From NCBI GenBank assembly GCA_964035545.1, contig OZ037771.1:7544690-7608689 (forward strand): a stretch of 64,000 bases of DNA, read 5' to 3'. The notes below the pieces were generated by a model. The model searched no databases. It worked only from the letters and a program-made list of their open reading frames with translations, and was not told the origin of the DNA. Made by a program: the position numbers and the translations under genes. Shown here in pieces: positions 18,197 through 61,335 of this stretch. Source of the stretch: Bugula neritina. Lineage: Eukaryota > Bryozoa > Gymnolaemata > Cheilostomatida > Bugulidae. How positions within the stretch are numbered: position 1 is the first letter of the stretch; each line of letters starts with the position of its first letter.

Positions 18197-23101
<4,905 letters not shown>

Positions 23102-30596: not shown

Positions 30597-33500
30597 CTAC
30601 CACTCTCCATAGAATAAAGGAAACAAGTAAATCTTCCTTCTACCAGTGAGAGTATTTATAACCACAGGAGTCTGTGTCACGTAAACAGTTGGATTTCTTT
30701 CTCTCCTTTTACCAGATATTTTCCTCACTCTGTGCTTCACCTTCAAATATTTTAAAACTAAATATATGCTGTTGTTTGCAGGCATCAAAATTTTTATTTT
30801 TTTAAAACGCTGAATAGAAAACTAGAACAAATGTTATTCAAAGAAAATATCAAGAAATTCTGTTTTAATAGAGATAAAAGAAAGGCATCAAATCTGAAAA
30901 AAAATAATATAATGTGCAGGAAGCTTATAAAAAGTATTATATATGAAATAGAGAACTCAGTAAAGCTCATTCATTCTGCATCTTATACTATGACTATATC
31001 AAACTGCGACTATACTATACTATTACATGACGGTGTTATACTATGACTATATTATACTATGACTATAATATTACACTATGGCTATATTATACTATGACTA
31101 TACAATAACATGACTATAATATTACACTATGACTATATTATACTATGATTATATTACACTATGACTATATTATACTATGATTATATTATACTATGACTAT
31201 ATTATACTACGACTATACTATACTATGACTATACAATAACATGACTATAATATTATACTATGACTATATTATACTATACTATGACTACACTATACTATGA
31301 CTATATTATACTATGACTATATTATACTATGACTATATTATACTATGACTATATTATACTATGACTATATTATGTCTAGTCACTAAAACTATACTACTAT
31401 GACTACACCACACTGACTAATATGAAAACAGACTCTTCTAAATAGGAAATGATGTCACAGGAAGTTACTCACAATATCAAATAAGTCAGCAAGATCACGA
31501 TGACAGCCATGTCTGTGTAAAGTCCTGACAAGTGTTCTTATTAATAATGAGCCACTATCATGGAATCTCATGGATGCACTGTCTATTAAAATAACACAAT
31601 GAGTTAAATGGTAAATATTATACAGTGTATAGTAACAGTGAGTGACACTGCCCAGTAAAAACTAGTGGGAAATGCGAAAAGAAAATTTGAAAATTGTGTT
31701 ATTTCAGCAACGAAAGGTATATCTTGAGAAAGTCACATATTTGATTGGTTTCACAATTACATGATGGCGATCGGGAGTTGTGGCCCGTGATTTAGGTGAA
31801 TAAGGATTAACCACACAGAATTGTTTGTAAGTTAATCATCTCACTTTTTAGGCAGCAGAGTATAAGCTGTACAGACTAGTGTTTCACAGATTACATGAAA
31901 ACTAGATAACTGTAACTCACACACAAATACTCTATGTACTCAGTTCAGGTTTATGAAAGGTCACGTGATTAGACAGCACACCACAGCTAGTGGGGGTGCC
32001 AACATGCAAAAATGGGCGGGTGGAGCACATCAATACTAACCTTTGTTGCTATATATCACTGCAAAGCCAACATTCTACTGACCTCAGATCTGCGAGTACC
32101 TTTTTTGTATCTGGGGGGGTTCTCTCGTGAGAGGGGTGGATATACAGGGGTTCAGCATTTTTCAAGGGGGGACTATGGAACTCTAAATATTTAATTTTCT
32201 GAGTAGTTTAAGTTTGACATTAACAATATTTTCAAGGAATGTTGTACACATATGAAACTTTCTCTAACAAAAGTTTTGACCAAAAATAAAAAAGTGGGCG
32301 GAGCCTATAATATGACAAACTACTTTTTTGCATATACCGGATATTCTCTAAACTGCTACTTTTCTGTTCTAGCATTTAGAATGTTGATTTTTGGTATGAA
32401 AATACTCTATTGTGTTCTAATAATGCTCTCCGATTTTCGTTACGCTCTGAACTATATAACATCTTTCCCAACCATGACAAATAAAAAACATAAAACGGGA
32501 GTTATCTCCTCCGTGAAAAGTTATTGCATTTCTACCCAATAATATTGCTGTTTGTTGATAGGAACAACATCAGCATGATAAAAATGTATTCTTAGTGTAT
32601 TTATATTAGCTTATTGACTTATTTTGAATCATTGATTACGATCAATACTATTGAGTATTAATATTCAATATTTACTGTATAAATTGAGTGTCAGCAATAA
32701 TTAACAGACCACTAATATTCGATTTTTTTATCCATAAGTATAGTAACATAAAATATGGTTCATAAAAAAGTAATATCATGATTTCAGCATCACAAGCAAT
32801 TACTATGCTCTTTTATATCAGATATTGGTAGACATTTGTAATTGTATTTATTTATAAATAAGATAGTATTTAAAATTTTAATTTACAATAGATCAAGCTT
32901 TATTACAAAGTTTTGTTATCTCTAGCGTTTATATACCAAATTAAATATATTATAATTCTTCATCAGAACTGTGTTTGTTGCCATCATCATCATAATCAGG
33001 CTCTTTGTTTGAAAAAGAAAACTGGCCACTTTTGTTGTTGCAATCAAAACATTCACATAAACCACAGCATTTCATCATCAGGCGCTTGCATTTGCATGCT
33101 TTACTCTTACAGCCTGCTTTTTTGCATTTACATGCTGTTAAAATCACATCTGCGTTGCTCTCAAAATCATATTTTATCACAAAACTTAGTCAAGAGACAT
33201 TGCTGAATATGAAAAAGTCACTTGAGGATTCATGTAATCTAAATACAGCATGGCTATTGGCAAGACTTGCCCCAATCAAACTATTTCAATTGGATATAAG
33301 TCCTTCTACATATAACTGCCCCAGCTGGAGTAGCTTCAATGTAAGAAATTTGGTTGCCACAGAAGATAATAAAAGATCAGTCATTGGGTATTGCCCAATG
33401 ATTAATGCACCATCAACAGATCAATCAACAATTTATACAATCCTTCTGCAGCTAAAGAAAACTATGAAAGTTTTAAATCAGAAACATTCAGTAATTACAT

Positions 33501-36500
33501 TTGACCAAGCTATCTACAAGATTGCCAAAGAGATTCAATGGAACAAACCAACTGAATTTTCAAACACAATAATTCGAATGGGCGGTTTTCATATCTTGAT
33601 GAATTACATTGCAGCACTTGGCAAAATGGTAAAATCAAGCGGCCTCGCCCAAGTTCTTGTACACAGTGATATATATTTTGAAGTTACAGTGAAACAGGTG
33701 CTATGTGGTAAGCATTATAACAGAGGTGTACGGGCACACAAGATTTTGTATGAGGCAATATCAAGGCAGAAACTAAAATCTCTTTCGGAATGGCTTCAAT
33801 AAAATAATCAGTTTGACCCATTAGAGTCTCATAATACGTATTTCTATTGATGATAACTTGCGTGAATGGACCACTGTTGCAGCTAAAGTTGCTACTGCTA
33901 TAAAAAAGTTTGATTCTGATACTAAATTAAAATCTAACCTTTCAATGTTCTGGAATTCCTACCTTCATGCAGTAGAAGCCATGTTGGGATTTATTCGAGC
34001 TGAGCGTAGTGGCAACTGGCAATTATATTTGGACAGTATGCAGGCAATGCTACCAGTATTTTTTGCGTATGATCGCACAAACTACTCAAGGTGGCTGCCT
34101 ATATACCTTATTGATATGCTAAATTTGCCTGAATCTGCTCCAGAAGTTTATGGAATGTTTGCAAAGGGTTCATTCACTGTAAACAGGACAGGAAAAAAAA
34201 TTGCAGGTATGGCTCCAGATCAAGTCTTGAAGCAAACTTTGAACCGAGACAGCAAAACATCTGGAGGCATTATTGGCATTAGCAACCATGAAGAAGCTCG
34301 GACAAAATGGTTCTTAACTAGTCATATCAGAGCCCAACTGCTTTCTTTGCAAAAGGATTTTTGCCAAATAGCCTCACAGTCATCAACACTACACAAGGAA
34401 GACACAATCACTACAACTATGACGGATGAGATTGATACACAAGCAATTCTTTTTACATTGCAGCAGTTTGATGTTAAGTTGTTTAGCAATACTTCAACTG
34501 AACTTATTAATATTGCTACTGGAGTAAGTCCCGATGCGGAGACCTTCTTGTCAATAGTGACTGCTATGGCTCAGGGAGGAGAAATGGCTCAAACGTTTTT
34601 TCAAGATAGACTTTTGAATACAATAAAACCATTTTACACTGCTATTCACCGGCTTAAAATCCCTTCCTTTGACTTTGTGGCTAAATCACTTCAACCGGCC
34701 ATTAAACCAATGTTCCTAAAATATCATTTGCTAAACTTCTCATAAGTGCCAAAAGTGCCAAAGATTTGCATACAGTTCTAGAGAAAGAAATTGGTCCCAT
34801 TCCTCTTGCTCTATTTACTGAAAACGGACAGATGAGAAAAACATGCAAATTGCAACTAATGCATATTTTGGAACAGAAATATCTTGGAAACAGGGTCTCC
34901 AATGATGATAGTCAACTGTCCACCAACAAATCGATCATTATTGATGGTAGGTGCATACTTCACTCGACAAAAACATCAGGCACTTTTTATAGCTATGCTC
35001 TGAAGATGTTGGAAATATTTCTTGAATGTGGCAAAGGATATACAAGGGTTGATGTAGTGTTTGACGTGTATTCTGAAACATCAATTAAAGCACAAGAGCG
35101 TATTAGACGGGGTGCCCAATAGATGTGCTCTATTTCCATTATTCATAACAACCTGCCTGTGCCTAAAAACTGAAGTGCTTTTCTGAGCAATATTCACAAC
35201 AAAAATGAGTTGGTAAATTACATAGTGAAGGTGCATGAAGTAGACATATTCAGAAAATTCCAGCTGGTACATTTTTAGTGTGTAGCGCCAAAGAAGTCTG
35301 TGTTCTGCAAAACCATTATCGTTAGAATTGTAACAAATTGAAATCCAATCATGATGAAGCAGACACAAGATTAATCCTTCATGCAGCTGATGCACTGAGT
35401 GATTACGATTTGGTAGTAATAAAATCAGTAGATACCGATGTTGCTATTATTGCGCTTAACATCATCTTAGTAATGTTTTAACTGATGAGCAGGCTAATAA
35501 AGATGTAGTAATCTTCGTTGGAATGGGGAGTCACAGAAGATATATATCTCTTTTTGAATCAGCCAAAAAAATCTAAAAAAAGTTCTCAAGAATCTATTAT
35601 CTCTCCATGCACTTACAGGTTGTGACTCAGTAAGTTCTATCTTTCGAATATCTAAAAAGCGTGCTTTGGAGGTACTTGAAAAGGAAAGCTATAATCTGTC
35701 TTTAGGTTCTGATGATTGGTCCCCAGTATCAGAAGAAACATACTTAGAGTGTGAATGATTTGTCTCCAACCTATATGATGCCTATGATGATATCACTGAA
35801 GCAAGATATAAAATATTGGCTTTAAAAAATGTCTCCAGTGAAGCACAGCTACCACCTAGTAGGAATTCCCTAGAATATCACGTGAAACGAGCCAATTATC
35901 AAGTTACACTTTGGCAACTTGCTTTTACACCTATTTTACTTCATCAGCCAATTTTTGACCATGGTTGGGATACTAACTTAACTCCAATAAAATATGATTT
36001 TGAGAGCAACGCAGATGTGATTTTAACAGCATGTAAATGCAAAAAAGCAGGCTGTAAGAGTAAAGCATGCAAATGCAAGCGCCTGATGATGAAATGCTGT
36101 GGTTTATGTGAATGTTTTGATTGCAACAACAAAAGTGGCCAGTTTTCTTTTTCAAACAAAGAGCCTGATTATGATGATGATGGCAACAAACACAGTTCTG
36201 ATGAAGAATTATAATATATTTAATTTGGTATATAAACGCTAGAGATAACAAAACTTTGTAATAAAGCTTGATCTATTGTAAATTAAAATTTTAAATACTA
36301 TCTTATTTATAAATAAATACAATTACAAATGTCTACCAATATCTGATATAAAAGAGCATAGTAATTGCTTGTGATGCTGAAATCATGATATTACTTTTTT
36401 ATGAACCATATTTTATGTTACTATACTTATGGATAAAAAAATCGAATATTAGTGGTCTGTTAATTATTGCTGACACTCAATTTATACAGTAAATATTGAA

Positions 36501-39500
36501 TATTAATACTCAATAGTATTGATCGTAATCAATGATTCAAAATAAGTCAATAAGCTAATATAAATACACTAAGAATACATTTTTATCATGCTGATGTTGT
36601 TCCTATCAACAAACAGCAATATTATTGGGTAGAAATGCAATAACTTTTCACGGAGGAGATAACTCCCGTTTTATGTTTTTTATTTGTCATGGTTGGGAAA
36701 GATGTTATATAGTTCAGAGCGTAACGAAAATCGGAGAGCATTATTAGAACACAATAGAGTATTTTCATACCAAAAATCAACATTCTAAATGCTAGAACAG
36801 AAAAGTAGCAGTTTAGAGAATATCCGGTATATGCAAAAAAGTAGTTTGTCATATTATAGGCTCCGCCCACTTTTTTATTTTTGGTCAAAACTTTTGTTAG
36901 AGAAAGTTTCATATGTGTACAACATTCCTTGAAAATATTTTTAATGTCAAACTTAAACTACTCAGAAAATTAAATATTTAGAGTTCCATAGTCCCCCCTT
37001 GAAAAATGCTGAACCCCTGTATATCCACCCCTCTCACGAGAGAACCCCCCCAGATACAAAAAAGGTACTCGCAGATCTGAGGTCAGTAGAATGTTGGCTT
37101 TGCAGTGATATATAGCAACAAAGGTTAGTATTGATGTGCTCCACCCGCCCATTTTTGCATGTTGGCACCCCCACTAAGCTGCTACCTGCTCTTTTTATTC
37201 TATTTGTTACTAATTTTCAATTGAATAATGGATTTGCCGTTTGAAAATTTTGGATTGTAAAGCTTTGAGAAATTGAACCCGTGACATTTCGATAATGAAA
37301 TTGGAAAACACCTATTTGGAGAATGGGCAAGTACCAAATAGACAATTGGAAAATAGACAATTGGAAAATAGAGAATATTCAACCTGGCCTAATCCAGAGG
37401 GGGCGTTTAGTATCTGGTCAGGTTCATAAAAGCTTTTTGTAAATGTGAACAAGTTTGAATTAGAACTACTCCCTAACTAAATCTACTTCTATGATAGCCT
37501 AACTGATACGGCCATTATATTTTAGAATTGACCAGATACCGGAGAGCCCCTTAGGACTAGACCATGTTGAATATTTTTCATTTTCCAAATGTCTATTTTC
37601 GATTTGCCCATTTTCTAAAAGTCCATTTTCCAAATAGTTGTTTTCCTATTGTCATTTTCAAAATCTCCTGTCACCATAAAATTATACCAATCCTAAAAAT
37701 GATGCAAGAAATATTCGTTTCTTTCGGTGGACAAAATTCTTACTTTCAAAGCAGGAGTGAAGGATTAGAAGGTCGTCAACATCAAAGTTCCTCTGTCCAG
37801 TTGAAGTCTCAGCTTCCTGTTGATGAGTTCTGAGAGCAGAAAGTTCTGGTGAGGAGGAGTTGGTACTCTGTTGAATATTCTGCTCAGTTTGACTGACTGA
37901 GTTACCTGATTGATTAGTAACACATGAGATATACCAACCAGTATTCTATGTATATGTATGAAGACTAGAGTATCATATAATAAAGTATTACAATAGTATA
38001 ATATATTCTTACTCGTATCATATCTACACTCACCAACTCTGCACGCCTGAATAACCACAACTTTAGGCTTGCCGGCCATGTTGGGAAAATTTGTAGAGTT
38101 AATGAGACTGTAGATCTGTGTTAGATAGACTGGCTGTGAGTCAACTCCATGAATCATTCCATTAGCTCCGTGTGCAAACAGAAACAGGAAGAACATACCA
38201 TAAGTGTTATGAATCTCATCTCTTGTCTCTGATTGAATACACTGGAGTATCTCCTGTATATGAATATAACACAACACACACAGTATACAAACTCAATGTG
38301 AGAGAGTCTATTCTATGAACAGGACTGACCAGCTCTAATAAACATACATTTCTATTCAGTACAGAGAGAATACAAGTAAAGACAACTCCTGGGACTACAT
38401 TTATATATTCAGTGTGAGTGTTAGGAGAGGGGAGAATTATTTTCTTCAATAATTGCAGCTCAGACACAGAATGAAGCAAACATACAAACATAGGGGGAGG
38501 AGGGGGGTGCGACCCAACCATCTGCCAACATCTTTTATTTCAACAACTGCTATCCATATATAGAGGCAACCAAGCATATTTGTCACATCTCATACTAGCC
38601 TCTAGGAAGTTAGCTCCGTGAAGCAAAAGTTAGCCCCAAAGCGAAGAGTTTGCATTTCTCTACTTTAATAACTGATTCAATAGACAAGTCTACAGGCTAT
38701 TATAACATTGAAGTGAGACATTAACCACTAATAACTAGTCACACTACGTGATAAGAAGAGGGAGACAACTACAAGTAAATAGAAATATACCTCAGCTGTG
38801 AGATCCTTCTGCTTCACAACCTCAAATCCCATCTTCCTGAACAGAGCAAATGTGTTGTCAACATCATAACTAGAGCCAAGTCTCTCTCCTACATTTCTAT
38901 ACTTGTTGTTGTTTATAATCAGAGCTCTTCCTCTGAATGGACTCGTCATCTTGTATATCTGTAGATACAGACTATGTAATTAGTTTAGTACTTATTCATA
39001 TCATATTATAAGCAACCGTAGAATGATGAGTTAAAAATCATCCATGAGTAGACTAATATGGTTTCGGACATATTTTGTGGCTTTAACACAGCTGCTAGCC
39101 CAAACAGAACTAGGAAAACTGAAAGTACAGGGTAGCAGTTTGTTTCATAGAAAAACAACACCTCACTCACACTTACCATACCTTAGCCCGTAACAGCAAA
39201 CATCAGTCATTTTTACAAATGTCTGAGCTTCCTGTACGGCATTGCAGTACGTTGAGATCAAGCACTACTCGATTCAAAAATGTTGCGGCGGACTTCTATT
39301 GGACCGAAAAATTTTGCGTCAACTCATTGGATATAATTGTCCAATGAAGTGTCACCTAATAGCCAACTTTGAAAACTTCAGACCGGATGCATTAAAAATG
39401 GCTGATATTTTACATTACGGCCTACGGTACGGTAAGTGTGAATGAGGGGTAAATCAATCACAAGACTGTTAAAGGCAGGTTATTTCAAACTTGAAGTAAA

Positions 39501-42500
39501 GTTGGTTATTTATAGCGTTAAAAAGAAGGTAAAATATTTTTATAGCTAAGACAGTTGATAAGTAGATGAAAATAGAAAAACAGAGAGGAGAGCCAAGGCT
39601 ATTCGTAGATAACAAAGAGGAGAGCCAAGGCTATACAGAGATAACAGAGAGGAGAGCCAAGGCTATACAGAGATAACAGAGAGGAGAGCCAAGGCTACAC
39701 AGAGATAACAGAAAGGAGAGCCAAGGTTATACAGAGATAACAGAAAGGAGAGCCAAGGCTAGACATAGATAACAGAGAGGAAAGCCAAGGCTATACAGAG
39801 ATAACAGAGAGGAGGGCCAAGGCTATACAGAGATAACAGAGAGGAGGGCCAAGGCTATACAGAGATAACAGAAAGGAGACCCAAGGCTATACAGAGATAA
39901 CGGAGAGGAGAGCCAAGGCTATACAGAGATAACAGAGAGGAGAGCCAAGGCTATACAGAGATAACAGAGAGGAGAGCCAAGGCTATAGAATATTCAACAT
40001 GACATACAAACCTTTGAAGTGTTGATGAAGAGAGACTTGATACTCTGATTAGTAGTAGGAACTAGTGTCAACTTGGTAAGATCTTCTGAAGTGGAGGTAG
40101 GACCTTCTTCTTCATCCGAAACATCACTCAGTACATCATCAGTACCAACAGTATGAGTAGCAGCTCCACTGTGTCCAATATTATCTATATGTACAGGAAA
40201 CATCACATAAACAGCTCAGAGAAATGTAATGAAACCAACAACCTACAGGAACAACTTCAACTGTCAATAACAAACATGGAGAATCAGAAAGGAAGAAAGT
40301 TATTCCTAATCAATTCTCTAGAAGTAAGTTTAATTCATGATACCTGGTGGCTTGTAGTTGGTCTTCACAAAGTCATTCAGTTTCTGCAGCTCATCTCCAG
40401 AAAGCTGGAAAGCTGCAATAGAAGTATGAATTATGGAGGTTGCTATTACTTGAACAGTACATCACCATCTGAATATGCTATAAATAACCTAAGAGAAGAT
40501 AATCATACTAACTCGGGTGTAAGAAACAAGCTGGGACATCTCTGTATGTTCCACATCTACCAGGTGATGAATCTGAAGTCATGGGAAGGGATTCACCATC
40601 TTTTGGAGGTCGACACCAGGGTGGGTTAATGAACCTCTTTGGACGCTTTTCTCCAACCAATGGGCAGTGAGCACACAAGTTGACACAGGTGATTTTACTT
40701 GCTCTCCATGTGGAGTTGACGTACTTTACGGTTGAATGAACTGAAGTGGTCAACATCTTCCATGCATTACCTATCTGTCGACAAGCAGACGTTACAGAGA
40801 TAGTGAGTTTACGAGATTTGTGGTCATGCAGCAACTGCAGGGTGTAAGCTTCGTCTCTCAGCTCCACTCCATTCTTTCTTACAGCTTTTTCACTACAATC
40901 CTGGAGATCATTGAGAAGTTTCACAGAAACCTGGTGGTAGACGTACTGAGGGGGAGTCAAGCCACCAAACAACATGTCTACTGACAGTTTTACGGGTTGC
41001 CTCTTGGAGGCAGTCAAGTCAGTGAAATACTCCTGTGAGAAGTACGGCATAGTGTAACTTAGTTTCTGGGATGAATCCTTCATCTCGAATAACAATTGGA
41101 AAGATTGTAGCAATGCGACTGCCACCTTCATCTTGTCACTCGTGGTGAAGCTGGTCTCTGCTATCAGAAGATGCTGAAACAGCTTCTCACTCATTCTGCC
41201 AGTTCGAACAAACTCTTGAGCCAAATTATTAAACTCTGTTTCATTTTCTATCAACGGATTGTCAAGTGAATCCTCTTCGATCGCTGACCGTCGATTGCTC
41301 CACACTTCCTTCTCGTGAGTGAAGAATACGTGGAGCAGCTTTGTGACCACAGAGATGTCGTAGAATACCAGAGACTGCAAACTCTCCCTATCCTGGTACC
41401 AAATGAGATGGCCGCTGTTATGCATGTACGACAGAATCACTCTCAGCTGGTCTTCATTTGCCAACTCGCATTCAATGACATGTTGAAGCACTTCTGGAAA
41501 TGTCTTGTAACTTCCATGGAAGGAGTTGAATGTTTGAGCAACTTTTCTCCACAGAGTAGGCACCTTCTTCACGACTAGTTTACTGTCAGATATGATATGA
41601 CTTCTCAGCTCATCAAACACCTCTTCATATTCATCACCCACAACATATATATCTTGTTCTTGAAACATCTCTTGGCGCTGAAAATGAGAAATTCCTGTGA
41701 AAAAAGAGCTGGAATAATTCTCTTTAGAATTTTCTTCTAGTTGCAACAAATTGAATACACTTTTGGTGTGGAAAAAGAACAGCCTTTTTAGCTCTTCAAA
41801 TCCATCTGCACTGTAAGCATCTCGGTGAGTGAAAACTAGTTTGGGTGCTCTGAGCCTAGGATTGGCCAGGTACAGATGTGAGAGCCAATCAAAATATGTG
41901 CATCGAACTGCTTCATTACCATTCACTTCTAAACAAAGCTCTTCAAACTCCTTTAGATTCACAACCACAAAAGGAATACAGTTCTGTTTCAATGTGAACT
42001 GGTAGGTAGATTGGTAGATTTCATTGCCACCAAAATCTATGAACTGAAGAACATTGTCACCAACCACTAACTTTTCCATATTGAAGACACGAGTTGTTTC
42101 ATCTTCCACTGCATCAGCCGCTCTATTGGTTAGTTCCCTTTTGCCATCTGATCTTACCAGCGTTTTTACTAGGCTGGTTTTCCCAGACAAAGACCTACCC
42201 ACTAGAGCAACAGCAGCTTCAGATACTTCTACATGACCACCAGACCTAAGATCTTTATAATACTGTCTGATAGCATGTAGTCCGTTTACACACACAGCAT
42301 AAGGTGGAGATGTGAGTGATTCACACCAGGGGCAGTACAGTTCAGTCAGATTAGGCATGTTGAGAAGTTGAGGAGTTAAAGATGTCATCTGAAAGTTGCC
42401 TGACAAGTTTAGGTGTTGGAGATTCTTGAGTTGACCGACACTACCAAGTAGGCATATAATATTACTTTAGTATTATCCTATATCAAATGTATTATGCTTA

Positions 42501-45500
42501 AAAGTAAAACTTGATTAAATACATAATAGGTAAGATCTAACATAGCCTGAGAGATAAATAGTGTTTGACAGCACAACTGTTGTAAATGACTAGAACACAG
42601 GCCAAACTGAAAATATAGACTATAATGATTATATTTTGACTCAACAGTACAACCATTACAGTGAAAAAATTGAGTATAGATTTTCAACTTGCAAATTTTA
42701 TTACATTAAAAAAATTTTAATCTACAATACAATTGCAATATATGGAAATTGTATTATTTCAAAACTATTGCAGTCATACGCAAAAGATTCCACACCCCCA
42801 TGCACTTTTTGCAGCTTTGATAAATGGCTAAACAGGATTTTCAATTTCTCAATACTCTAAAAGACTTAAAATAATGCCAAACTGTTGCATATGGTGTTGT
42901 GTGTTGTCTTCTAATCTAACTAAACAAGTTTAAATAATTTTAAATAATATTTTGAAGTAGTAAGTATCTAACATAGCCTGAGAGATAAATAGTGTTTGAC
43001 AGCCCAACGTGGCAAATGACTAGAACACAGGCCAAACTGAAAATATAGACTATAATGATTGTTTGACTCAACAGTACAACCATTACAGTGAAAAAATTGA
43101 GTGTAGATTTAAAATTTGCAGATGTTATTAAATTTGAAAACTTTGGATCTGCTATAATACAATTGCAATATATAGACATTGTATTACTGGAAAATTATTA
43201 CAGCCATGCGTAAAAATATTGACACCCTCATATATTTTTTGAAGCTTTTATAAATAGCTAAACAGGACTTTCAATCTCTTAATATTTCAAAAAATTTGAA
43301 GTAATACCAAACTGTTGCATATGGTCTTGTATGTTGTCTACTAATCTAACTAAATATATTTAAATAATTTTAAATAGATAAACTACATTTGTTCTAAGAA
43401 GCTCGAAAGCTGAAGTAAATTTTGAAATGTTGTTTACCCATTTAGGCTCATTTTTGCCTCCATACCATTGTACATACAAGGCAAAGTACTGTATTGTGAA
43501 TAAATATTTACAAAGTTTCAACCTTGGGAACAAGCGTTGTGCAACTTGAAATGTAACTGTACTACAGACTGAGTAAGCAGTAATGACATAATATACCTAA
43601 CAAAGCTACTATTTTTCTAAACTCAAACTTCACTTAATTATGGTGAGTGGTGGAAGACAAAATTTTAGCAGGCAGCAGCTATCAAACTAAGAAGTACTAA
43701 AAGAAAAAGCAACTGGGTTTGGTTTTGCAACATTACAGGAAACTGGGGAGTGATTTATGGAATGTCATGACATTGGTGGTTTCATACTTCAAATTGGCTC
43801 ATGAAAATTACTACTCCATGGCAAGAACTGGTGAAATATAAATTTCTGAAGGATAAATTCATGCTGCCAGCTGCGTGGAGATTATGCAGAAAAAAGCAAC
43901 TTTACAGAAAGTAGAAAAAAACTTACTTTCTACCATACTTTCCTAGTAAAAGAGAGAAAATTCAATTACTAGAGTGGCCCATGCAAAAGCCCAAAAGAAT
44001 ATTTTTATAGACAATACAAAGAAGAGTAGCTGCGATAAAACCAACTGAAATGGTCAATTTAGCTAGAACTGTCATCAATGCATGGTACAGGATGTGAGAT
44101 AAATCACAAAATCAGCTGTGTTAGTGGAGAATATGTCAGCCTGCTGTCTAGCAGTCATTGGTGCTAATAGTTACTCACTCACACTGAAACACTGATATGT
44201 TATGTGCAAGAACCTCTTCACACACAATTAACATCTCATTCTACATTCTTCTTCATTTTGCTAACCAAATGAAGAGAAAATTTCAAATCCCCGCACAATT
44301 ATGTTTCAGTGCAAAAATTTTCTAGAGTTGTAGCTCAGTCAATAAATTGCATTTTATATATATATTTAAATTTTTGCAGCATGAAAAATTTCAGAAGTTG
44401 CAAACAAAGAAGTAAACTGGTAAGCAATTTGGGGGTGTCAAAACTTTTACGCATGACCAAATAACATATTGCAAGCTACAATCATATTTATTCAAAGTTA
44501 TTATTATCTATAGTTTATATAAAAAAGATGATCACATATGATATCTTATATGTGTACATAATAGAAGAACATATATAACTAATATAACTCACCTGTCTGA
44601 TAATGTATGTAAGTCACAGCTCCTTAGATTTAACTCTGTAAGTGACTCCATCTTTGGTATCACCTCAGGTAATGTTCCTAACTTATTCTCAGACACTTCT
44701 AATGTGTGTAGATGTGTGAGTTGAGAGAGACTGTAATATACATACAACATACCATGAATATAATTATACAAGTTACAGAAATATTATGTTAAACATACTG
44801 TGAGTTTATTCTAAACTGTTGCTTTGTAAGTATGGATTGTCAGTTAATTGTGTGCAGTAAGGATAGCCAAAAGAGAATAGGCAGTTTCAACATGTGGTAA
44901 ATATATAGAAAGAATCCTGGTTGCGCAATGCTGACATCCTGTAGTTTGTAATGGAAAGTAAAAAGTATTCAAAAGATGGAAAACCTCTAGGTGTGGTGAC
45001 TATGAAGAGAAGGGAAAGATCACAGAGAAAGTATACGGAGAGAAGAAAAAACAGACAACAAATAAAATTGTAACAGCCAAAGAGAAGGCATATGAGACAG
45101 TCTATGAATACTTACAAGAGATCGAAGCAAAGAAACTATACACCTATATACCTATAAGAACCTATATATACCTAGATACAAGTTGGCCAAAACAAGAAAA
45201 AGACGATTATTGGATATTAATAGAATGAAATTGTGACTATAATCCATCAGAATGGTGACAGCATAAATGAGAATGTTGAGACACATCTTTAGGATAATTT
45301 ATGAGGAGCATATGGAAAATGATGTGATTAGATAACAGGTTGGAGTGATATGAATGTCTATAAACATGAGGAAAAACGTCTGCAGTGGTATTGCCATGTT
45401 TGCAGCAAAGATGATGATATTAGCTTCAACTCCAATGGATTAGAATCAATGGTATAATGGATATGAAGAATCTGACAAATTGAAACATACAATATAATCT

Positions 45501-48500
45501 AACAAGAAATGAGGGTGGTCTAGGCCAGTGGCTCCCAACTTTTTTCTACTATTCCCCCATTTAATAAATGTTGACTACCGTATTAATTCCCCCCCCCCCT
45601 TTCGTAAAGCAAAAAAAGTTTCATGACTGACATAATGATAATATAGAATACAATACAATATTGTTTGTTCTATTAAAATATAATTATAATAGTAGTTATA
45701 TTATCGTCATTATTATGTTATGCATGTATAGAACAAGGAGCAGTTCAATTTATAATGATTCTTTTGTGCCAGCTTGCATAAGTCTGCATTGCTGTTTTTG
45801 GCTATGCCCATCTTAATTCACTCTGCAGATTAGGGCAGTTTCTCTTCTCTTTGAATTAATGGGAATCCTATCTCACTTGGAAAGATGGCGCTGGGTGGCA
45901 CCAAAATTCTACTTTGTCAGCTATGTGTGGGGAGAGTTTGCTTGTTAAAACCCAAAATGATTTTAGGTGAAAATGGGCACAAATGGAGAAGTAGGTAAGA
46001 CTGGCACACTGATGGTAAATTGTCCCAAACCCCCACCCCGGCTATCAAAAATTAACCCCAAACCAAAACCTCCACCTTGTATTCAAACCCAAAATCCTCA
46101 CCTCAAATCCGACCCCCAAACGCTCACCCCAATATTGAAAATGGTGCAGGTAGTAGTGAAACAAATGGAAAATTGGGTAAAAATGGCACATTTTTAATAT
46201 TAAAGTTGAAGATTTGGGATTGGGGGTTCAATATGGAGGGTTTCGGGTTCAGCATGGGGGGTTTGAGAAAATTTAACACCAGTGTGCCAGTTTTACTTAA
46301 AATCAGAACAGGTTCTTTTCCTAAAACAGTTCACGGAGTGTGGGGAAAGACACCATATTTTTGATAGACGCCACAACTTTAGTGTAACTTTGAAAACATT
46401 GATACTGCAATGCAAAGCAATGATAAGATTATTTATAGAGATTGGCTTGCTTAATGTTGGCCTATTGGTTTTTGCAAACTTTTTGACATCGATTTAAAGT
46501 AGTTCAGAGAACAATCAGGGTAGAGTAATTAATAAACACTTTCATGTTGAAGTGAACTGAGATTGCAGAATATGGTTTGGTTAAATAGATTAACTAAGAG
46601 GAAGGTTTATAGATATGCATGTACATGTAACATGCAGGAGCTTAAAAAAGCCTTCAATAAACTGCGTGAATTTCTTAAAAACTAAATCCCCCCTAAAAAG
46701 CCCAAACTCCCCTCTAGGGGAGAATTCCCTCCAGCCTGGGAACCACTGGTTTAGGCAAAAAGGGTGGGAGGTTTGTTTAAGAATAATATCCACTTTATTA
46801 CTAGAGAGTTGGTATGCTGGGACTACTAGTATCAGTTCTGTTACACTTTATTATATGTTTATATAATAGTAGAACACATATAACTATTATGACTCACCTG
46901 TCTGGTAATATATGTAAGTCACAGCCCCATAGATGTAACTCTGTAAGTGACTCCATCTTTGGTATCACCTCAGGTAATGTTCCTAACTTATTACCAGACA
47001 CATCTAATGTATGTAGATGTGTGAGTTGAGAGAGACTGTAATATACATACAACAAACCATGACTATATTTATACAAGTCACAGGAATATTATATGGTAGA
47101 TATGCAGTGAATCTAAACTATTATTGCCTTGCTAGTATGAATTGGGTAAGTTATTTGCATTTAAGAATAATATCCATATTATCACTAGAGAGTTGGTATG
47201 CTGAGACTACTAGTATCAATCATATTATACTTTATTATATGTTTACATAATAGTAAAACATATATAATATAACAAATATATCTCACCTGTCTGGTAATGT
47301 ATGTAAGTCACAGCACTCTAGACGTAACTCTGTAAGTGACTCCATCTTTGGTATCACCTCAGGTAATGTTCCTAACTTATTACTAGACACAACTAATGTG
47401 TGTAGATGTGTGAGTTGGGAGAGACTGTAATATACATACAATATTAGTAATTAGCATGAGATGAAAACCATTTATCAAAGAATGGACTAAAGAGTTGGAA
47501 TAAGTTTATAACTCAATAGCAGTTGTAACAATATCAAGTGAGCAAAACATTGCAGAGCGTTTCTACTCTCCGTGAGTGGCTAGTGCTGCGGAAAAAGTGA
47601 CCTTTGACCAGTAAACGAAGGTTGACAGATGCCATGGCAATAAGATAGCGATTGAAGAGAATGAGAGAAGACAATTTCCTGGACTAAGTATAAAGTGATT
47701 GGCAGGTATTATCATACAACCAGGGGATACAATTGGAATAATAATGAAGGTAGTTATTATTTCAGAGTGAATCTAGAAGCATTATAACTCATCTCCTCCC
47801 CAGCAGGTTCAGCTCAAACTAATATAATTCTATTTAAGTACAATAATGGAAACATTTCTATACTTTTCAATTTCAATTCTTTACTGGTCTTAATGAATTT
47901 CTTTTGGGGGTTTGGTTGAACATAATTTAGTTTGCACTTTTGCTCATCAAGCGCACAGACTTTTCCAAAATTCCACCCTTACTGCACCCACTTTTGTAAT
48001 TCAAGGAAAACAGAATGACTACTCAGGTGCAGTAGGGATATGAAGGAATATTGCTGACATGCCATACAAGTATAACTCACCAAACACTTCAACATTTCAG
48101 TAAAGAGTCAGTGAGTTACAAGTGAAAAATCCACAGCAAGAAACACAGCTCAAGTATATATAATTATCCAAAGAGAAGTCATGCTCTAGAGTCTAGAAGA
48201 TAGAAATATTGTGACCTTAAACATGTTGATAACAAAGTGATGATAGACTTATTATTCTAAACTGTTGATACTGGTTAGCTGTTGAATACACAAGTTAGTC
48301 ACAAGTGGAGCAAACTCTGTTTAGAATATCAATCCTGCCTGGTAAGGAAACATAGTCAGTTACTCATGAGATGGAAGACAAGATGAATACAGTAGAAACG
48401 AGACACATTTTTTGGATAACTTACGAGGAGCACGTTAAACGTGATGTGATTAGATAACAGACTGAGGTGAAAAAAATGTCTGCAGTGGTATTTGCATATT

Positions 48501-51462
48501 TGCAAAAAAGAAATGATGAGGATATTAACCTCAATTATAATGTATAAAAATCAATGGTATATGGAGATATTAAAAATCTGACAAATGGGAACATACTATA
48601 AAATATATCAAGAAGTACTGGAGCATTAAGCAAGAAGAAGTCCACAGCCGAGTGTGATTGAGCTGGGAGATTGCAGAACGGCTACCTTGCAGGACTATAG
48701 TCAGTTAGGTGAGAAAGGCGAAAAGTTGTGTTTAATCTTATACTAATCTCTACAGTTTATGTAAAAGCAGTGAACATGTTATGACTCACCTGTCTGGTAA
48801 TGTATGTAAGTCACAGCACTCTAGACGTAACTCTGTAAGTGACTCCATCTTTGGTATCACCTCAGGTAATGTTCCTAACTTATTACCAAACACATCTAAT
48901 GTGTGTAGATGTGTGAGTTGAGAGAGGCTGTAATATACATACAATATACTACGACTATAATTATACAAGTTGTAGAAATATTATATTAAACATGCAGTGA
49001 CCTTTTATTGTTTCTGCTCTGCAAGTATGAATTGTGTCAGTTGATTGTGTTTATGAATTCACTTTATAACTAGAGAGTTGGTATGCTGGGACTACTAGTA
49101 TCAGTTTTATTCTACTCTATTATAATATATTTACATATAATTAGAACACAGATCGAATGTGCTACACATACAAAATTACCGATTAAACCACAGTAAATAT
49201 GGGAAGAAAATGCTTTTTAAAAAATAAAATGATTCAGTGTAACAAATTGCTAAATCAAAAGCAGTTGTAACAATTCTCCTGTAAAGAATATGTTGAAGAT
49301 GGTTTTACTCTGCATGACCAGGTTTGGCTGCCAAGGCAGCCACCTGAGAATTACTGATTACAGAAGGAAAGTAAAAAACTAGAGACAAAACAAGAGAAGA
49401 TAAATCTCCGAATTTTTAATTCACTTAAACTTGACTCTGTTGCAAGTAAATTATGATGCAGTATAAAACTGGCCATAGGTGTGATAGTAGCTGTAAGGCA
49501 GGCAATAACAGGTAGGCCTAAGTAATGAAAAGTCCAACAATTACTTTGAGATAATAAGAATAAAGTATTCACAACCCTGGACTAAGTATAAAGTGATTAT
49601 AAAAGCTGGAGATACAATTGAGATAATGCTGATAGGTAGGAAGGGAGATCTTATTTCAGAGTGACTCTAGATTACTACTCATCTGTATATATAAACTATA
49701 GCTGCGTTCAGAACATATTAAATATAGTTGATTGTTTTACTCCATATTTCATTAATCTAAAAATATAGAATTTTATCCCACAATTTTAGCAACTCAAACA
49801 ACTTCTAAAGCACGGATAATACACTAGAAGGAACGAAGATAAAACTAATAGCAGTGAATACTTTGAAGAATATGAAACAAACCAAAAGCTACAAGTTGTG
49901 CAGGTAAGAATATATTTGATTTGTGATTTCCTCAATGAATATACAACTATCCATTTCTCTACTGCCAGAATAAATATAAAAGTTATCCCCACATGCAGGT
50001 AATCAGCTATGATGTGTGAGTCACCAGAAGTCATTGTTGACCTCTTCCCCAACAGCTTCAGCTCAAACTAATATAATTCCATTAAAGTGCAATAATGGAA
50101 AAAACTCAATATTCTTCAAATTCAATTATTTACTGGTCTATATGATTTTCTTTTTAGGGGTTTGGTTGAACATAATTTAGTCTGCACTTTTTCTCATCAA
50201 ACACACAGACTTTATCAAAATTCCACCCTTACTGCACCCACTTTTATAACTAAAGGAGAACAGAATGACTACTTAGGTGCAGTAGAGATATGAAGGAATA
50301 TTGCTGACATGCCATACAAGTATAACTCAATAAACACCTCAACATTTCAGTAAATAGTCAGTGAGTTACAACTGAAATACTGACAGTGAAATACACAACT
50401 CAAGTATATGTTATTATTCAAAGAGAAGTCATGTTCTAGAGGATAGAGGATAGAGGGATTGTGACCTTAAACATGTTGATAAAAAAGTGATGATAGACTT
50501 ACTATTCTAAACTGTTGATACTGGTTAGCTGTTGAATACGCAAGGTAGTCACAAGTGGAGCAAACTCTGTAACAGCAGGTGGCAGATCTCCCTCTATAAA
50601 TAGGTCAGTGATCACATGACCTGAACAGAGCTTCTTTATTTCCTCCTTTGTATAGAGTTGTGTAGATTTGACGGACAAACTTGTGAGGCTAATAGGATCC
50701 ATACCAGAGTGCCTCCACCAACAGCTGTATTTCTCTGCTAATAACAAATGATCTAGTTTTAGTACATTCGTACCTAATAATAGAGTAAATATAATATCAC
50801 CTGGTTTATAGTACATCTATCTATGGTAAAATTCTAGTAGTATAAATTACATCATTTTACTGTTGAATTACTTATATAATAATTGAAAATATAATCCAGC
50901 AGTAAACATATTCCTATATTCAAAGAGACAAACATACTAATTGTTGAGGCATCAACATGAAGATTAATAGGAATAAAACTGAGACTTTCTTCAACTTTTT
51001 ATATCAGGTAGACTGAAAACAAATGAGAAACTTATCTGATAGACAATCCAATGCTGATGTTTCTATTTAAGATTTCACATACAACATGTTGATAAGAAAA
51101 TACTAGCAAGTATAAGAAATGGCAAGAATTAGAAATAAACCTGTTTTTAATGTGATCCAAAAAGTTATCAACAGCTTCATTAAGCTACATGCAGATAAAA
51201 GTCACAGAAAGTTATGGTGTATACAGAAACACCATAGTATAAATATAGTTCAGAGAAGAAACTTAAAGGGGGATAACAAAGTCTTTATTTTAACTTTCAA
51301 GTTGGAAGATGTAATTGAAACCTATTCAGGTATATTTAAAGAATACTGTATTCAGGTGAATATTTTACCATTCTCCAGACCAACTAATATTGTATACGGA
51401 CCTGTTTGTGAAGTTGCTGCTGTTACATCATCCTCAGAACTGGTTACAGAGTTGGTAGCCAT
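30597..51462 (-). CDS. LRR-Roc-COR-caspase fusion protein (copy A)
   Basis: Fourteen exons in transcript order: 51402-51462, 50503-50773, 48790-48927, 47287-47424, 46898-47035, 44593-44730, 40513-42440, 40344-40412, 40012-40184, 38791-38958, 38034-38253, 37744-37905, 31473-31582, 30597-30740. All phases close, giving about 1285 residues. Order: short Ser/Thr leader; LRRs (four 138-bp exons of two 23-residue repeats each); Roc GTPase with P-loop GRSLSGKT at about 376-383, DFGG at about 430 and THRD (the G4 variant also seen in LRRK proteins) at about 499; COR-like region to about 935; acidic linker; caspase (C14) p20 from about 1022, His 1102 in FAHGANG and Cys 1145 in QACRV; p10 ending FPLFYGEW. 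No CARD, DED, death domain or kinase is evident. I infer a GTPase-controlled caspase. The least certain boundaries are the exon 7 donor (an alternative lies 33 nt upstream in the same phase) and the exon 14 acceptor. Confidence 0.85.
30983..31395. repeat. 16-bp satellite (ACTATGACTATATTAT) in copy A intron 13
   Basis: An array of a 16-bp unit with shorter and mutated members (ACTATACT and ACTACGACT variants). The same unit is expanded at the same intron position in the paralogue (56275-56935). Confidence 0.9.
31988..33177 (+). repeat. left terminal inverted repeat (1190 bp)
   Basis: Mirror image of 35987-37176. Where I compared base by base I found one difference (near 32224, C against A in the other arm). 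It includes an antisense copy of the last 76 codons of the element's gene. Confidence 0.9.
33190..36214 (+). pseudogene. decayed transposon protein with FEN1/XPG-like motifs and C-terminal cysteine cluster
   Basis: One long protein is recognisable across several frames. Segments are about 33190-33802, 33840-34745, 34715-35122, 35340-35460, 35480-35560, 35585-35760 and 35760-36214. Breaks include a TAA at 33800-33802, frameshifts near 33840, 34710 and 35350-35580, a TAG at 35120-35122 and a stop near 35757. Conserved-looking stretches such as FAYDRTNYSRWLPIY and FHILMNYIAALGKM belong to a family I recall from cnidarian and other invertebrate genomes as uncharacterised transposon-like proteins. 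Later motifs run VVFDVY...SIK..ER.RRG, EADTRLILHA, VDTDVAII and GCDSVSSIFRISKKRAL. They match in order the Asp, Glu/Asp and helix-hairpin regions of FEN1/XPG nucleases. The end is Cys/Lys-rich (CKCKKAGCKSKACKC), then acidic. The last 76 codons lie within the right terminal repeat. Confidence 0.75.
35987..37176 (-). repeat. right terminal inverted repeat (1190 bp)
   Basis: Mirror image of 31988-33177. It contains the 3' end of the element's coding sequence (to the TAA at 36212-36214) and about 960 bp of further sequence to the CCCCCACTA terminus. Confidence 0.9.
37280..37675. mobile_element. foldback/MITE-like inverted repeat, copy A only
   Basis: The left side (GTGACATTTCGATAATGAAA, then CAATTGGAAAATAG) is an imperfect inverse of the right side (CATTTTCCAAATGTCTATTTT, then TTTTCAAAATCTCCTGTCAC). 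The matching place in copy B (about 59280-59330) lacks the whole block. Target duplication is not clear. Confidence 0.6.
39162..39447. mobile_element. MITE with CTCAYTCACACTTACC termini, copy A only
   Basis: The left end CTCACTCACACTTACCATACC is mirrored at the right end by GGTACGGTAAGTGTGAATGAG. The interior is GC-richer than its surroundings and has one open frame that I do not think is a gene. The matching intron of copy B lacks it. It sits in the intron just upstream of the first caspase exon. Confidence 0.65.
39581..39986. repeat. 32-bp minisatellite, about 12 copies, copy A intron 9
   Basis: The unit begins GAGCCAAGGCTATACAGAGA and continues TAACAGAGAGGA. It abuts the donor side of exon 40012-40184. 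Copy B has only about three to four units at the same place (61222-61335). Confidence 0.92.
42536..43390. repeat. tandem duplication of about 430 bp in copy A intron 6
   Basis: Both units open with TAACATAGCCTGAGAGATAA (42537 and 42967) and stay alignable to about 43390. The same sequence begins at about 63875 in copy B, beyond exon 7, showing that the first unit predates the gene duplication. Confidence 0.85.
45262..45515 (+). pseudogene. LINE reverse-transcriptase C-terminal relic 1
   Basis: Broken plus-strand reading resembles the end of non-LTR retrotransposon polymerases: RMLRHIFRIIYEEH, then KRLQWYCHVCSKDDD (compare the common RLRWxGHVxRxDD motif). It contains stops and has no partner ORF. 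It lies in copy A intron 5, next to a hAT-like insertion. Confidence 0.55.
45526..46748. mobile_element. hAT-like non-autonomous element (copy A intron 5)
   Basis: The ends are CAGTGGCTCCCAAC and GGGAACCACTG, with an 8-bp target duplication GTCTAGGC / GTTTAGGC (one mismatch) at 45518-45525 and 46749-46756. CAGNG-type termini with 8-bp duplications are typical of hAT transposons. No transposase is seen. Two inverted copies of the G-skewed ATGGCACA repeat lie inside (about 45967-46310). The element is related, in reverse orientation, to 57469-59121. Confidence 0.85.
48253..48322 (-). pseudogene. truncated copy of exon 2 with destroyed donor site
   Basis: This segment repeats the 3' end of exon 2 (50503-50572) almost exactly. 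At the exon end the minus strand reads GAATAATAAGTC, where the real exon has GAATAGTAAGTC, so the GT donor has become AT. Surrounding sequence (47795-48330) parallels 50040-50570, so it came with the LRR module duplication. Confidence 0.8.
48375..48625 (+). pseudogene. LINE reverse-transcriptase C-terminal relic 2
   Basis: Alignable with the relic at 45262-45515 (GATGTGATTAGATAACAG and GTCTGCAGTGGTAT occur in both). It is broken by stops and lies in copy A intron 3. Confidence 0.5.
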
Positions 51463-55670: not shown

Positions 55671-56274
55671 CATATATACATGGTATAGCAAAAGTATAAA
55701 ATGATAAGTAGAATTAAATACTTATATTCATAGTTCGCAGGTAAAGTACATCACATAGCGGTATATAGAGTGTCACATGTATAGAGCATGTAGTGAAATA
55801 TAATACCACATGCAAGGTTTAGATACTGTAGTCAGTATATACATAATATCTGTATTAAATGTGTATATATGATATAAATAGCGTAGTACCATACTCTACA
55901 TGTCCACACAGGGATGTGGGAGCTCAGTCTACCACTCTCCATAGAATAAAGGAAACAAGTAAATCTTCCTTCTACCAGTGAGAGTTTTTATAACCACAGG
56001 AGTCTGTGTTACAGTACCTTCTGAGTCGGATCTGTTACCTGATATTTTCCTCACTCTTTCTTGTACCTTTAAATATTTCATAATCAGGTAAACATTGGTC
56101 AGCATTACTGACACCACAGCAAGAGTTAGAATGTATCGCATCTGTAAATTCACCTACTAGAAAAAATTGTATTTGTGAATAGCAAAATTATATATACAAA
56201 TAGCATATCTATAATAAATTCAATTATATTGATATTGAATAAAGTGGAGACTACATAACTAACACCATAATATA

Positions 56275-56935
56275 CTGTGATGGTATTACTATACTACAGT
56301 GTATCATGACTATAATATAGTATGATTATAGTATATTGTAAAATATTTGTGAAGGAAAGATTCTATTTGTGTGAGAATGACTACATATTACTATGACTAT
56401 ATATTACTACGACTATACTATACTATGACTATATTATACTGTGACTATATTATACTATGACTATATTATACTATGACTATACTATACTATGACTATACTA
56501 TACTATGACTATATTATAATATGACTATATTATAATATGACTATATTATATTACTATGACTATATTATACTATGACTATATTATAATATGAAGATACTAT
56601 ACTATGACTATATTATACTATGACTATATTATATTGTAAAATATTTGTGAAGGAAAGATTCCATTTGCGTGAGAATGACCACATATTACTATGACTATAT
56701 ATTACTACGACTACACTATACTATGACTATATTATACTATGACTATACTATACTATGACTATACTATACTATGACTATATTATACTATGACTATATTATA
56801 TTATGACTATACTATACTATGACTATATTATACTATGACTATATTGTACTATGACTATATTATACTATGACTATATTATACTATGACTATACTATGACTA
56901 TATTATGACTATATTGCACTATGACTAGTCACTAC
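56275..56935. repeat. 16-bp satellite with a 300-bp higher-order repeat, copy B intron 13
   Basis: The same ACTATGACTATATTAT unit as at 30983-31395. Here a block starting TTGTAAAATATTTGTGAAGG occurs twice (56335 and 56634), so about 300 bp including satellite has been duplicated in tandem. Confidence 0.88.
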
Positions 56936-57977
56936 ACCTATACTACTGTCACTACACCACACCAACTAATACGAAAACAGTCTCTTCTAAATAGGAATTG
57001 ATGTCACAGGAAGTTACTCACAATATCAAATAAGTCAGCAAGATCACGATGACAGCCATGTCTGTGTAAAGTCCTGACAAGTGTTCTTATCAATAATGAC
57101 CCACCATCATGGAATCTCATGGATGCACTGTCTATTAAAATAATACAATGAGTTGAATAGTAAATATTATACAATGTAGAGTAACAGTGAAACATTGCAG
57201 TATAACTAGTGAGAAATATAAACAGAAAATTTTACAAGCTCAGCAACAAAAGGTATATCTTGAGAAAATTGAATGATGGGTTTCACAGCTACCTGATTGG
57301 CTATTGGGAGTTGCAACACATTATTCAAGTGAAATGTACTCTAAAGCTCAGAGAAGGCTCTGAATTGTTAAGGAATTTTAAAGAGCTTAAATTAAAAATA
57401 TTCAGCTGGAAAACAAATACTCGGCAGCAGAGTATAAACTGTACAGACTGGTGTTTCACAGATTACATCAGTGGTTCCAACCTGGGGGGAATTCCCCCCT
57501 AGGGGGGAATTTGGACATTTTAGGGGGGAAATTTGGATTTTGAAAAATTCACGATATTTGTTGACGGTTTTTGAGCTCTTGCAAGTTACATCTCTATAAA
57601 TCTTCATCTTAGGTCATCTATTTAACCAAACCATATTCTGCAATCTCAGTTTACTTCTACATGGATGTGTGTTTAATAATTACTCAACCCCAACTGTTCT
57701 CTGTGTTACTTCGAATGAAAGTCAAAGATATGCAAAAACCAACAGGCCAACTTTTAGCAACCATGCAAGTCAATTTCTATGCTACATACCTAGTGAATAT
57801 TTTTGCTACACTGAATAACCTGAACCTAAAGATGCCGGAGTGCAATTATCATATTATTGCCTTTCATAGCAGCAGCAATTTTTTTAAGGTTACACTAAAG
57901 TGGTGTCATCTCTATCAAAAGCATATCTTTCCCTACACTCAATGAACTTTGATAGAAGAAGAACCTGTTCCGATTTT

Positions 57978-58173
57978 AGGTAAAAATGGCACAGGTAGAA
58001 ATCGCACACTGGTGTTACATTTTCCCAAACCCAAACCTCCAAACCCCTCATCCTGAACGTCTAACTTCCAACTCAAATCTACAATGCTAATATTGAAAAT
58101 GTGCGAATTCTACTTAATTTTTCATTTGTGCCATTATTACTTGTGCCATTTTTACCTGTGCCATTTTTACCAG
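57978..58173. repeat. G-skewed ATGGCACA repeat inside hAT-like element (C-rich orientation)
   Basis: GGTAAAAATGGCACAGG at the left, TGTGCCATTTTTACC twice at the right, and a CCCAAACCCAAACC tract between them. Confidence 0.6.
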
Positions 58174-58437
58174 AAACCACATGTTCCAGATCATTTTTCA
58201 GAAAAAAACTTCTAGGCATCTCTCTGAACTTTTAATGGAGTTTTAAGGGTATTTCTCTGAGCTACCTCCCAAAAAGAAAGAGCTATATGATTGTTAACTT
58301 AACATGTGATCCACTGCAACGCTTTGTTGAAAAGTTTTCAGAGAAGTTACAGAAGGATTTTATTGAGTTGGTTCACAATTCAGTATGGAAGGGTAATTTG
58401 AAATTTTCTCCAGTTGAGGTTTTGTGGGTAGTGTCCG

Positions 58438-58692
58438 GTAGAAATGGCACAGGCAATAATGGCACAAATGGAAAGGTAAGTAAAAATGGCACATGTTTTC
58501 AATATCAGGGTGGGGATTTGGAGTTTGAAAGAGGGGTTCGGGAGAAGGATTTTGGGTTTACACTTGGGGATTCTGGAGTTTGAGGGTGGGAGTTTGGGTT
58601 AGGGGGTGGGGGTTTGGGGTTAGGGGCTTGATGTGAAGGGTTTGGGGTGTGAGTTTAAAAAAAACTTAACATCAGTGTGCCAAATAATTGTG
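58438..58692. repeat. G-skewed ATGGCACA repeat inside hAT-like element (G-rich orientation)
   Basis: ATGGCACAGGCAATAATGGCAC opens the copy. A tract of GGGTTAGGG, TTTGGGG and GGGTGGG groups spans about 58560-58660, and AACTTAACATCAGTGTGCC closes it. The plus strand has enough G runs for quadruplex formation. Confidence 0.6.
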
Positions 58693-61158: not shown

Positions 61159-61221
61159 AATATGGGTTCTGACATATTGTGTGGCTTTAACACAGCTGCT
61201 AGCCCAAACAGGTCTGGGGAA

Positions 61222-61335
61222 GGAGGAGAGCCAAGGCTATACAGAGATAGAGAAGAGAGCCAGGGCTATACAGAGATAATAGAGAGGAGAGCCAAGGCTA
61301 TACAGAGATAACAGAAAGGAGAGCCAAGGCTATAG
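61222..61335. repeat. 32-bp minisatellite, about 3-4 copies, copy B intron 9
   Basis: Same GAGCCAAGGCTATACAGAGA unit and same position next to the acidic-linker exon as the larger array at 39581-39986. Confidence 0.9.

Follow-up and report, generated by a model that had tools for sequence, protein, structure and literature searches.

Animal cells usually commit to death through switches whose sensor, adaptor, and caspase are separate proteins. Among animal ROCO proteins, MFHAS1 consists of leucine-rich repeats (LRRs) and Roc-COR only, and placozoan members with CARD, death, and TIR domains have been reported (PMC4104024). A sequence-only reading of the locus described here had named a kinase, a death domain, or COR itself as the possible ends of animal ROCO proteins; that list was incomplete, since placozoan CARD and TIR proteins are also on record. 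In bacteria, LRR-AP-GTPase (Roc)-COR proteins with at least 24 kinds of C-terminal effector, a caspase among them, are described as conflict systems (Kaur et al. 2021; PMC8195603). Here we describe a gene in a 64,000-nt window of the genome of the bryozoan Bugula neritina (contig OZ037771.1) in which an LRR-Roc-COR protein continues into an animal-type caspase. That these parts belong to a single gene is close to certain. The whole statement, which adds to the one-chain LRR sensor, Roc-COR switch, and caspase a GTP-gated, proximity-activated role in immunity or self/non-self recognition, is probable. The architecture is apparently new in animals and already known in bacteria; no description of an animal ROCO-caspase fusion was found in the open-licence papers searched, which is a weak negative.

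All positions are coordinates in the window, of which 30597-51462 corresponds to C7:7575286-7596151. Rebuilt with GT-AG borders, the gene (copy 1) has 14 exons on the minus strand, from 51462 to 30597, separated by 13 introns, with consistent phases and a stop-free reading frame of 1,285 codons, as the sequence-only reading had proposed. Its exons are as follows.

51402..51462, minus strand: exon 1, with the start codon ATG at 51462 and a phase-1 donor
50503..50773, minus strand: exon 2, N-terminal cap preceding the LRRs
48790..48927, minus strand: exon 3, LRR cassette of 138 nt with two LRRs, phase 2
47287..47424, minus strand: exon 4, LRR cassette of 138 nt
46898..47035, minus strand: exon 5, LRR cassette of 138 nt
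44593..44730, minus strand: exon 6, LRR cassette of 138 nt
40513..42440, minus strand: exon 7, last LRR, Roc, and COR, with a phase-1 donor immediately 5' of a TAG
40344..40412, minus strand: exon 8, hinge (TFQLSGDELQKLNDFVKTNYKPP), phase 1 at both ends
40012..40184, minus strand: exon 9, acidic linker with a Ser-Asp (S-D) motif (DDVLSDVSDEEE)
38791..38958, minus strand: exon 10, start of caspase p20
38034..38253, minus strand: exon 11, caspase p20 with the catalytic His-Gly and the QACR Cys
37744..37905, minus strand: exon 12, intersubunit linker and start of p10
31473..31582, minus strand: exon 13, caspase p10
30597..30740, minus strand: exon 14, end of p10 (RRKIYLFP) and stop

The acceptor of exon 14 is the least certain border of the model; matches to this exon start at the identical residue in loci L002, L008, L011, L012, and L016. 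Homologues of exon 2 are present in L020 (upstream of the tandem copy 2), L004, L007, L012, and L017.

A Pfam search of the copy 1 protein matched LRR families, Roc (28.8 bits; cut-off, 27), and Peptidase_C14 (141.2 bits; cut-off, 21.4). The Roc motifs stand at residues 376 (P-loop), 430 (DxGG), and 499 (THRD), and P-loop, DxGG, and THxD are kept in the paralogue alignments. The gene has a caspase fold with the catalytic His at residue 1102 and Cys at residue 1145 (in QACRV). The parts that had been read from the letters, namely, LRRs, Roc motifs, a COR-like region, an acidic linker, and a caspase with His and Cys in place, are confirmed. The active-site stretch, QACRVG, does not match the usual QACxG/QACRG signature, which is typical but not defining. 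Arg, Gln, and Arg stand at what we take to be the places of the caspase S1 pocket, and on this motif Asp-directed cleavage is putative. The best sequence match of the caspase is CED-3, and vertebrate caspases also match. Membership in the NLR family was considered and rejected, as neither NACHT nor NB-ARC was among the 18 Pfam families matched up to an E value of 1; the NTPase of the gene product is Roc. One weak match, to which no weight is given, came from scanning three proteins with PADLOC.

Whether the exons form one gene was judged across the genome (215,847,546 bases in 295 contigs searched; the assembly is given as 216.00 Mb, with nine chromosomes holding most of it, in PMC11480708). 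From 137 candidates, 69 ROCO-exon places were scored, and 18 further Roc places in frames of 450 amino acids or more (150 of 338 candidates scored) brought the list to 87 ROCO exons, which was set beside 135 caspase exon-11 places. All but one of the ROCO exons (86/87) are followed within 20 kb by a caspase exon of the same strand, which in 83 cases lies within 6 kb (median distance, 1.74 kb). The other three arrangements, with the caspase upstream or on the opposite strand, were found for 0 of 87 within 6 kb; a caspase exon upstream on the same strand accompanies 1 ROCO exon at 10 kb and 11 at 20 kb. The ROCO exon ends in a phase-1 GT after a conserved Pro in 46 of 46 other loci, comprising all 16 fetched loci, 20 of 20 more chosen among matches reaching the query end, and 10 of 10 in the C6 cluster; for the fetched loci, the donor stood at the aligned place in 13 and was found in 3 after a match that stopped early had been extended. 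In the 16 fetched and 20 further loci, the next stop follows the donor at a distance of 3 to 159 bases, and its place is not conserved. Likewise, an AG immediately precedes the first caspase codon in 15/15 loci and in 10/10 more from C6. An acidic exon candidate with the S-D motif occurs in 15/15 loci, in 14 of them with a phase 0 end and the pre-caspase segment, and tblastn located the acidic exon in 10/10 C6 loci.

The public gene models point the same way. In a first protein search, the only match at an E value of 0.001 or better was a B. neritina protein, 85% identical over 91%. The public B. neritina models were made by AUGUSTUS with transcriptome hints (PMC7576161), and one of them, P0001, has the junction of exons 7 and 8 as in the window gene. 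The search of related species that had been recommended found the fusion in Watersipora subatra, which belongs to a different family and superfamily and shares a suborder with Bugula; its public models join LRR, Roc, and caspase parts as those of B. neritina do. We scanned eight public proteins, seven of them from Watersipora, against Pfam. All seven Watersipora proteins have Peptidase_C14 above the cut-off, a Roc match (above the Roc cut-off in P0056 only), and LRR matches (below the cut-off in P0062); COR is matched below the cut-off in P0056, P0059, P0062, and P0063. For one Watersipora protein, the predicted fold is that of LRR-Roc-COR together with an animal caspase, and the part equivalent to the hinge in a Watersipora relative is predicted as a helix. 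The best VIA-align match of a Watersipora model is CED-3, the VIA-align rows being caspases only and carrying no information on the N-terminal half. Of 13 public linkers compared, 12 contain the S-D motif. Public names of models that carry the join include "hypothetical protein" and "MFHAS1 homolog," several Watersipora members being named as MFHAS1 homologues. A further COR-caspase model of B. neritina, P0058 (EB796_012341), publicly named CASP8, is the one whose linker is without the S-D motif.

Several observations weigh against the proposed architecture and the join within it. In copy 1, the Pfam matches to COR-A (30.9 bits; cut-off, 35.3) and COR-B (16.5 bits; cut-off, 27) fall below their thresholds, and Pfam gave no COR match in Watersipora P0051, P0054, and P0061. 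The structure model of exon 7 is of low confidence (mean pLDDT, a per-residue confidence score, of 61.5); a fold search with it ranked structures of LRRK1, the Roco of C. tepidum, and LRRK2 first, with TM scores to the query of 0.30 or less, and the better model of Watersipora P0061 gives a COR fold result in agreement. Despite the scores below the cut-offs, these models lead us to assign a predicted COR domain directly after Roc. The join could also be false: the TAG after exon 7 would then close a ROCO gene, exon 10 would open a caspase gene, and the two neighbors or operon partners would have been duplicated as a unit. In copy 1, the donor of exon 7 (GTTAGT) is weak and the TAG comes 3 bases past the last full codon, directly after the donor, while exon 10 contains an in-frame Met (IYKM). 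Tandem units of two genes would produce the ROCO-caspase pairing as well; the sequence-only reading had taken the tandem copy as an argument against a misjoined model, which is insufficient alone, because a two-gene unit can be duplicated too and tandem copies therefore cannot decide between one gene and two. No caspase follows the hinge in the Watersipora models P0018 and P0019, which hint at short ROCO-only isoforms, and exon 10 is skipped in P0001. Furthermore, 49 of the 135 caspase places are unpaired with any listed ROCO exon; for L008 and L009, which are among them, a diverged ROCO match exists that was not on the list of scored places, and L014 and L015 have no ROCO match in the 10 kb fetched. 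The hinge exon was recognized by eye in only 8/15 loci and by tblastn in 5/10 C6 loci. However, the place and phase of the donor are kept at every other locus examined and the place of the stop is not, the codons and AG before the exon 10 Met are kept in 25/25 loci, the conserved acidic linker exon is best understood as a bridge, two species have joined models, and the other gene arrangements are missing at short range. Decisive for the fusion is that paralogues with about 40% identity retain the splice phase and the linker exons, and that the join recurs in a second bryozoan species. The one-gene reading fits best because of the conserved phase-1 donor, the phase-0 acidic linker, the genome-wide pairing, and the joined public models, which also support the original claim of a single gene. 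Given the splice phase, the linker exons, the orientation across the genome, and the second species, a misjoin of two genes was rejected, and we regard two separate genes as very improbable.

Accepting the fusion leaves its role and origin to be weighed. Caspases act in development, and cheilostome bryozoans repeatedly renew their feeding bodies, so that a real fusion could serve programmed tissue turnover, such as the cyclic degeneration of polypides, and not the recognition of targets that are foreign or non-self. This is unlikely in view of features resembling a repertoire, namely, at least 86 exon pairs, differing numbers of LRR cassettes, near-identical tandem copies beside ones about 40% identical, and the tails of L010 and L017, which look swapped. 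Many members could instead lack protease activity and act, like c-FLIP, as scaffolds or decoys that bind other caspases through their caspase fold. Of 27 copies of caspase exon 11 that were read, one (L010) was cut off, leaving 26. Three of these 26 (L022, L023, and L029, all in the C6 cluster) have Ser for the catalytic Cys (EASSG) and are grouped in the caspase tree with a support of 91; they are possible pseudo-proteases. In 14 of the 26 (L001-L004, L009, L011, L012, L018, L021, L025-L028, and L030), E-x-C replaces Q-x-C or similar. An acidic residue before the catalytic Cys recalls paracaspases and metacaspases, and with it at the active site the cleavage preference may differ. Given the Ser and E-x-C copies, not all copies need be active caspases. 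However, the Cys is kept in 23/26 and His-Gly in every exon read (for L016, taken from the rebuilt model), the window gene keeps His, Cys, and the S1-type Arg, Gln, and Arg at their presumed places, and 14 of 14 Watersipora proteins inspected keep QACSG or QACLG, which makes a decoy function of many members decidedly unlikely. Acquisition of the whole gene from a bacterium with LRR-Roc-COR-caspase proteins is suggested by the bacterial best match of the Roc part among solved sequences and by the report of this architecture in bacteria (PMC8195603). Against it, the best named non-bryozoan match of a profile search is a Branchiostoma MFHAS1 homologue (24% identity; E value, 7e-37; 145 bits versus 104 for the next row; stronger matches of unnamed source exist), the caspase matches CED-3 and vertebrate caspases, and the model has 13 introns. 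A bacterial origin was thus considered and judged highly unlikely on the animal-type caspase and the MFHAS1 matches.

The fusion gene is one of many in an expanded family: B. neritina has at least 86 ROCO-caspase exon pairs, of which a few contain stops. In-frame stops interrupt 3 of 69 ROCO exons (TAA in copy 2, TGA in L006, and TAG in L013), and L026 and L029 each carry a single stop in their ROCO match; these also count against every copy being functional. The ratio of nonsynonymous to synonymous substitution rates (dN/dS) between ROCO exons was calculable for 11 of 12 pairs, the twelfth being saturated, and ranges from 0.15 to 0.42; the highest value belongs to copy 2 versus L006, both of which bear stops. 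The ROCO part is under purifying selection in the pairs compared. The LRR exons are 138-nt phase-2 cassettes of two 23-amino-acid repeats each, four in copy 1 and five upstream of copy 2. Two quick trees, one of Roc-COR with 34 rows and one of caspase p20 with 35, both made without L005, L006, L009, L014, L015, L019, L020, and L027, agree in outline. L010 and L017 stand with L003 and L012 in the ROCO tree, whereas their caspase tails group with L008/L016 (support, 90) and with Watersipora P0059 and P0061-P0063 (support, 97). This suggests tail exchange through introns, as a lead from a caspase tree in which 9/32 branches are starred as strong and for which the program warns of long branches. 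One ROCO exon, G000:C1:33884509-33886431, lies in an open frame of 2,363 amino acids, the other 68 being in frames of 633 to 753 amino acids.

The nearest paralogue, copy 2, lies partly in the window.

55929..63781, minus strand: exons 7-14 of copy 2, the upstream exons lying beyond the right window edge, in L020
63781-61860, 61759-61691, 61531-61359, and 60599-60432, minus strand: exons 7-10 of copy 2
59897-59678, 59549-59388, 57131-57022, and 56066-55929, minus strand: exons 11-14 of copy 2
63484..63486, minus strand: premature in-frame TAA in the Roc exon of copy 2

The eight exons have lengths equal modulo 3 to those of copy 1 and are 81 to 100% identical. A tandem copy with the same exon order had been reported from the letters, and the eight downstream exons agree with this; to be added are the TAA, given which copy 2 may be a pseudogene, and an array larger than two copies. 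The array comprises six minus-strand copies at 7.58 to 7.72 Mb of contig C7, and three plus-strand copies lie at 5.06 to 5.11 Mb of the same contig.

Within the introns of copy 1, a 32-bp tandem repeat occupies part of intron 9 (39515-40058), and intron 3 contains, at 48200-48320, a degraded duplicate of the exon 2 end, which was seen by eye beside a repeat and is a trace of exon duplication. Intron 12 holds a 5.2-kb insertion (31988..37176) with perfect inverted repeats of 1,190 bp and several open frames, one with a Cys-rich stretch; four frames scanned gave no Pfam match. The insertion is absent from the corresponding intron of copy 2 and is therefore probably a young mobile element. Elsewhere in the window (20900-23200, minus strand) are exons of a gene resembling argininosuccinate lyase; the one exon scanned (22234-22545) matched Lyase_1, and the finer name is our presumption.

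In the mechanism that we propose, the LRRs of the protein would be the sensor and Roc-COR the GTPase switch; a helical hinge and a flexible acidic linker then lead to the animal-type caspase. Binding of a ligand by the variable LRRs would change the GTP/GDP state or the assembly of Roc-COR, and this change would bring two caspase domains together on one scaffold. Initiator caspases are activated by the proximity of two caspase domains, and the proposal draws on the behavior of Roco proteins and initiator caspases. The caspase would then cut itself or nearby substrates, leading to cell death or an immune response, so that one chain would do what NLR and APAF1 platforms do by recruiting separate caspases. 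Judged from sequence, it is plausible that the protein is a death or immune protease gated by GTP. Reading the acidic S-D linker as a site of self-cleavage is only a guess, as the linker could equally be a phosphorylation site; the residue after the S-D Asp in Bugula copies is often unfavorable for caspases. The number of copies, the exchangeable LRR cassettes, and tails that may have been swapped suggest recognition of varied targets, such as pathogens, symbionts, or other colonies.

More tentatively, the family might be a phylum-level bryozoan receptor repertoire that combines recognition, GTP switching, and execution in one chain, with LRR cassettes and caspase tails that recombine and some copies that are pseudo-proteases. 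It would then be an animal counterpart, possibly independently assembled, of the bacterial LRR-Roc-COR-effector systems, standing in for NLRs and inflammasomes, whether in immunity or in allorecognition between colonies. ROCO is the family of the Parkinson's disease protein LRRK2, here joined to a caspase and multiplied to dozens of genes. Protease activity would offer a direct readout of how the nucleotide state of Roc-COR controls an attached effector, a question shared with LRRK2 and MFHAS1. Immune and allorecognition genes are little known in this colonial phylum, and the family is a candidate for its recognition repertoire.

Compared with known systems, the bryozoan gene has LRRs, Roc, and COR in the same order as animal LRR-ROCO proteins of the MFHAS1/MASL1 type. 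The Branchiostoma MFHAS1 homologue has no caspase match, whereas the bryozoan gene adds the hinge, acidic linker, and caspase. Animal caspases (CED-3 and caspase-9, -8, -1, and -3) share the p20/p10 fold, His-Gly and Cys, and the S1-type Arg; in the bryozoan protein, however, a whole LRR-Roc-COR replaces the prodomain, QACRVG stands for QACRG, and paralogues with E-x-C occur (14/26). NLRs, APAF1, and CED-4 likewise place caspases under the control of sensor repeats and an NTP switch, but the bryozoan switch is a Roc GTPase and not a STAND ATPase, and its caspase is covalently attached and not recruited through CARD or death-fold domains. Brown algal ROCO proteins likewise form an expanded LRR-ROCO family with phase-2 LRR cassette exons and include a group of three with a C-terminal peptidase (PMC11378527). 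This peptidase is not a caspase but IPR009003, presumably a trypsin-like entry; the algal cassettes are 72 bp with one LRR, and the bryozoan ones are 138 bp with two. Prokaryotic AP-GTPase-COR systems, as described in PMC8195603, share the LRR-Roc-COR and C-terminal effector architecture and have several paralogues per genome. Their effectors vary among paralogues, whereas the bryozoan gene is spliced, has animal-looking parts, and belongs to a family in which 86 of 87 ROCO exons are paired with a caspase.
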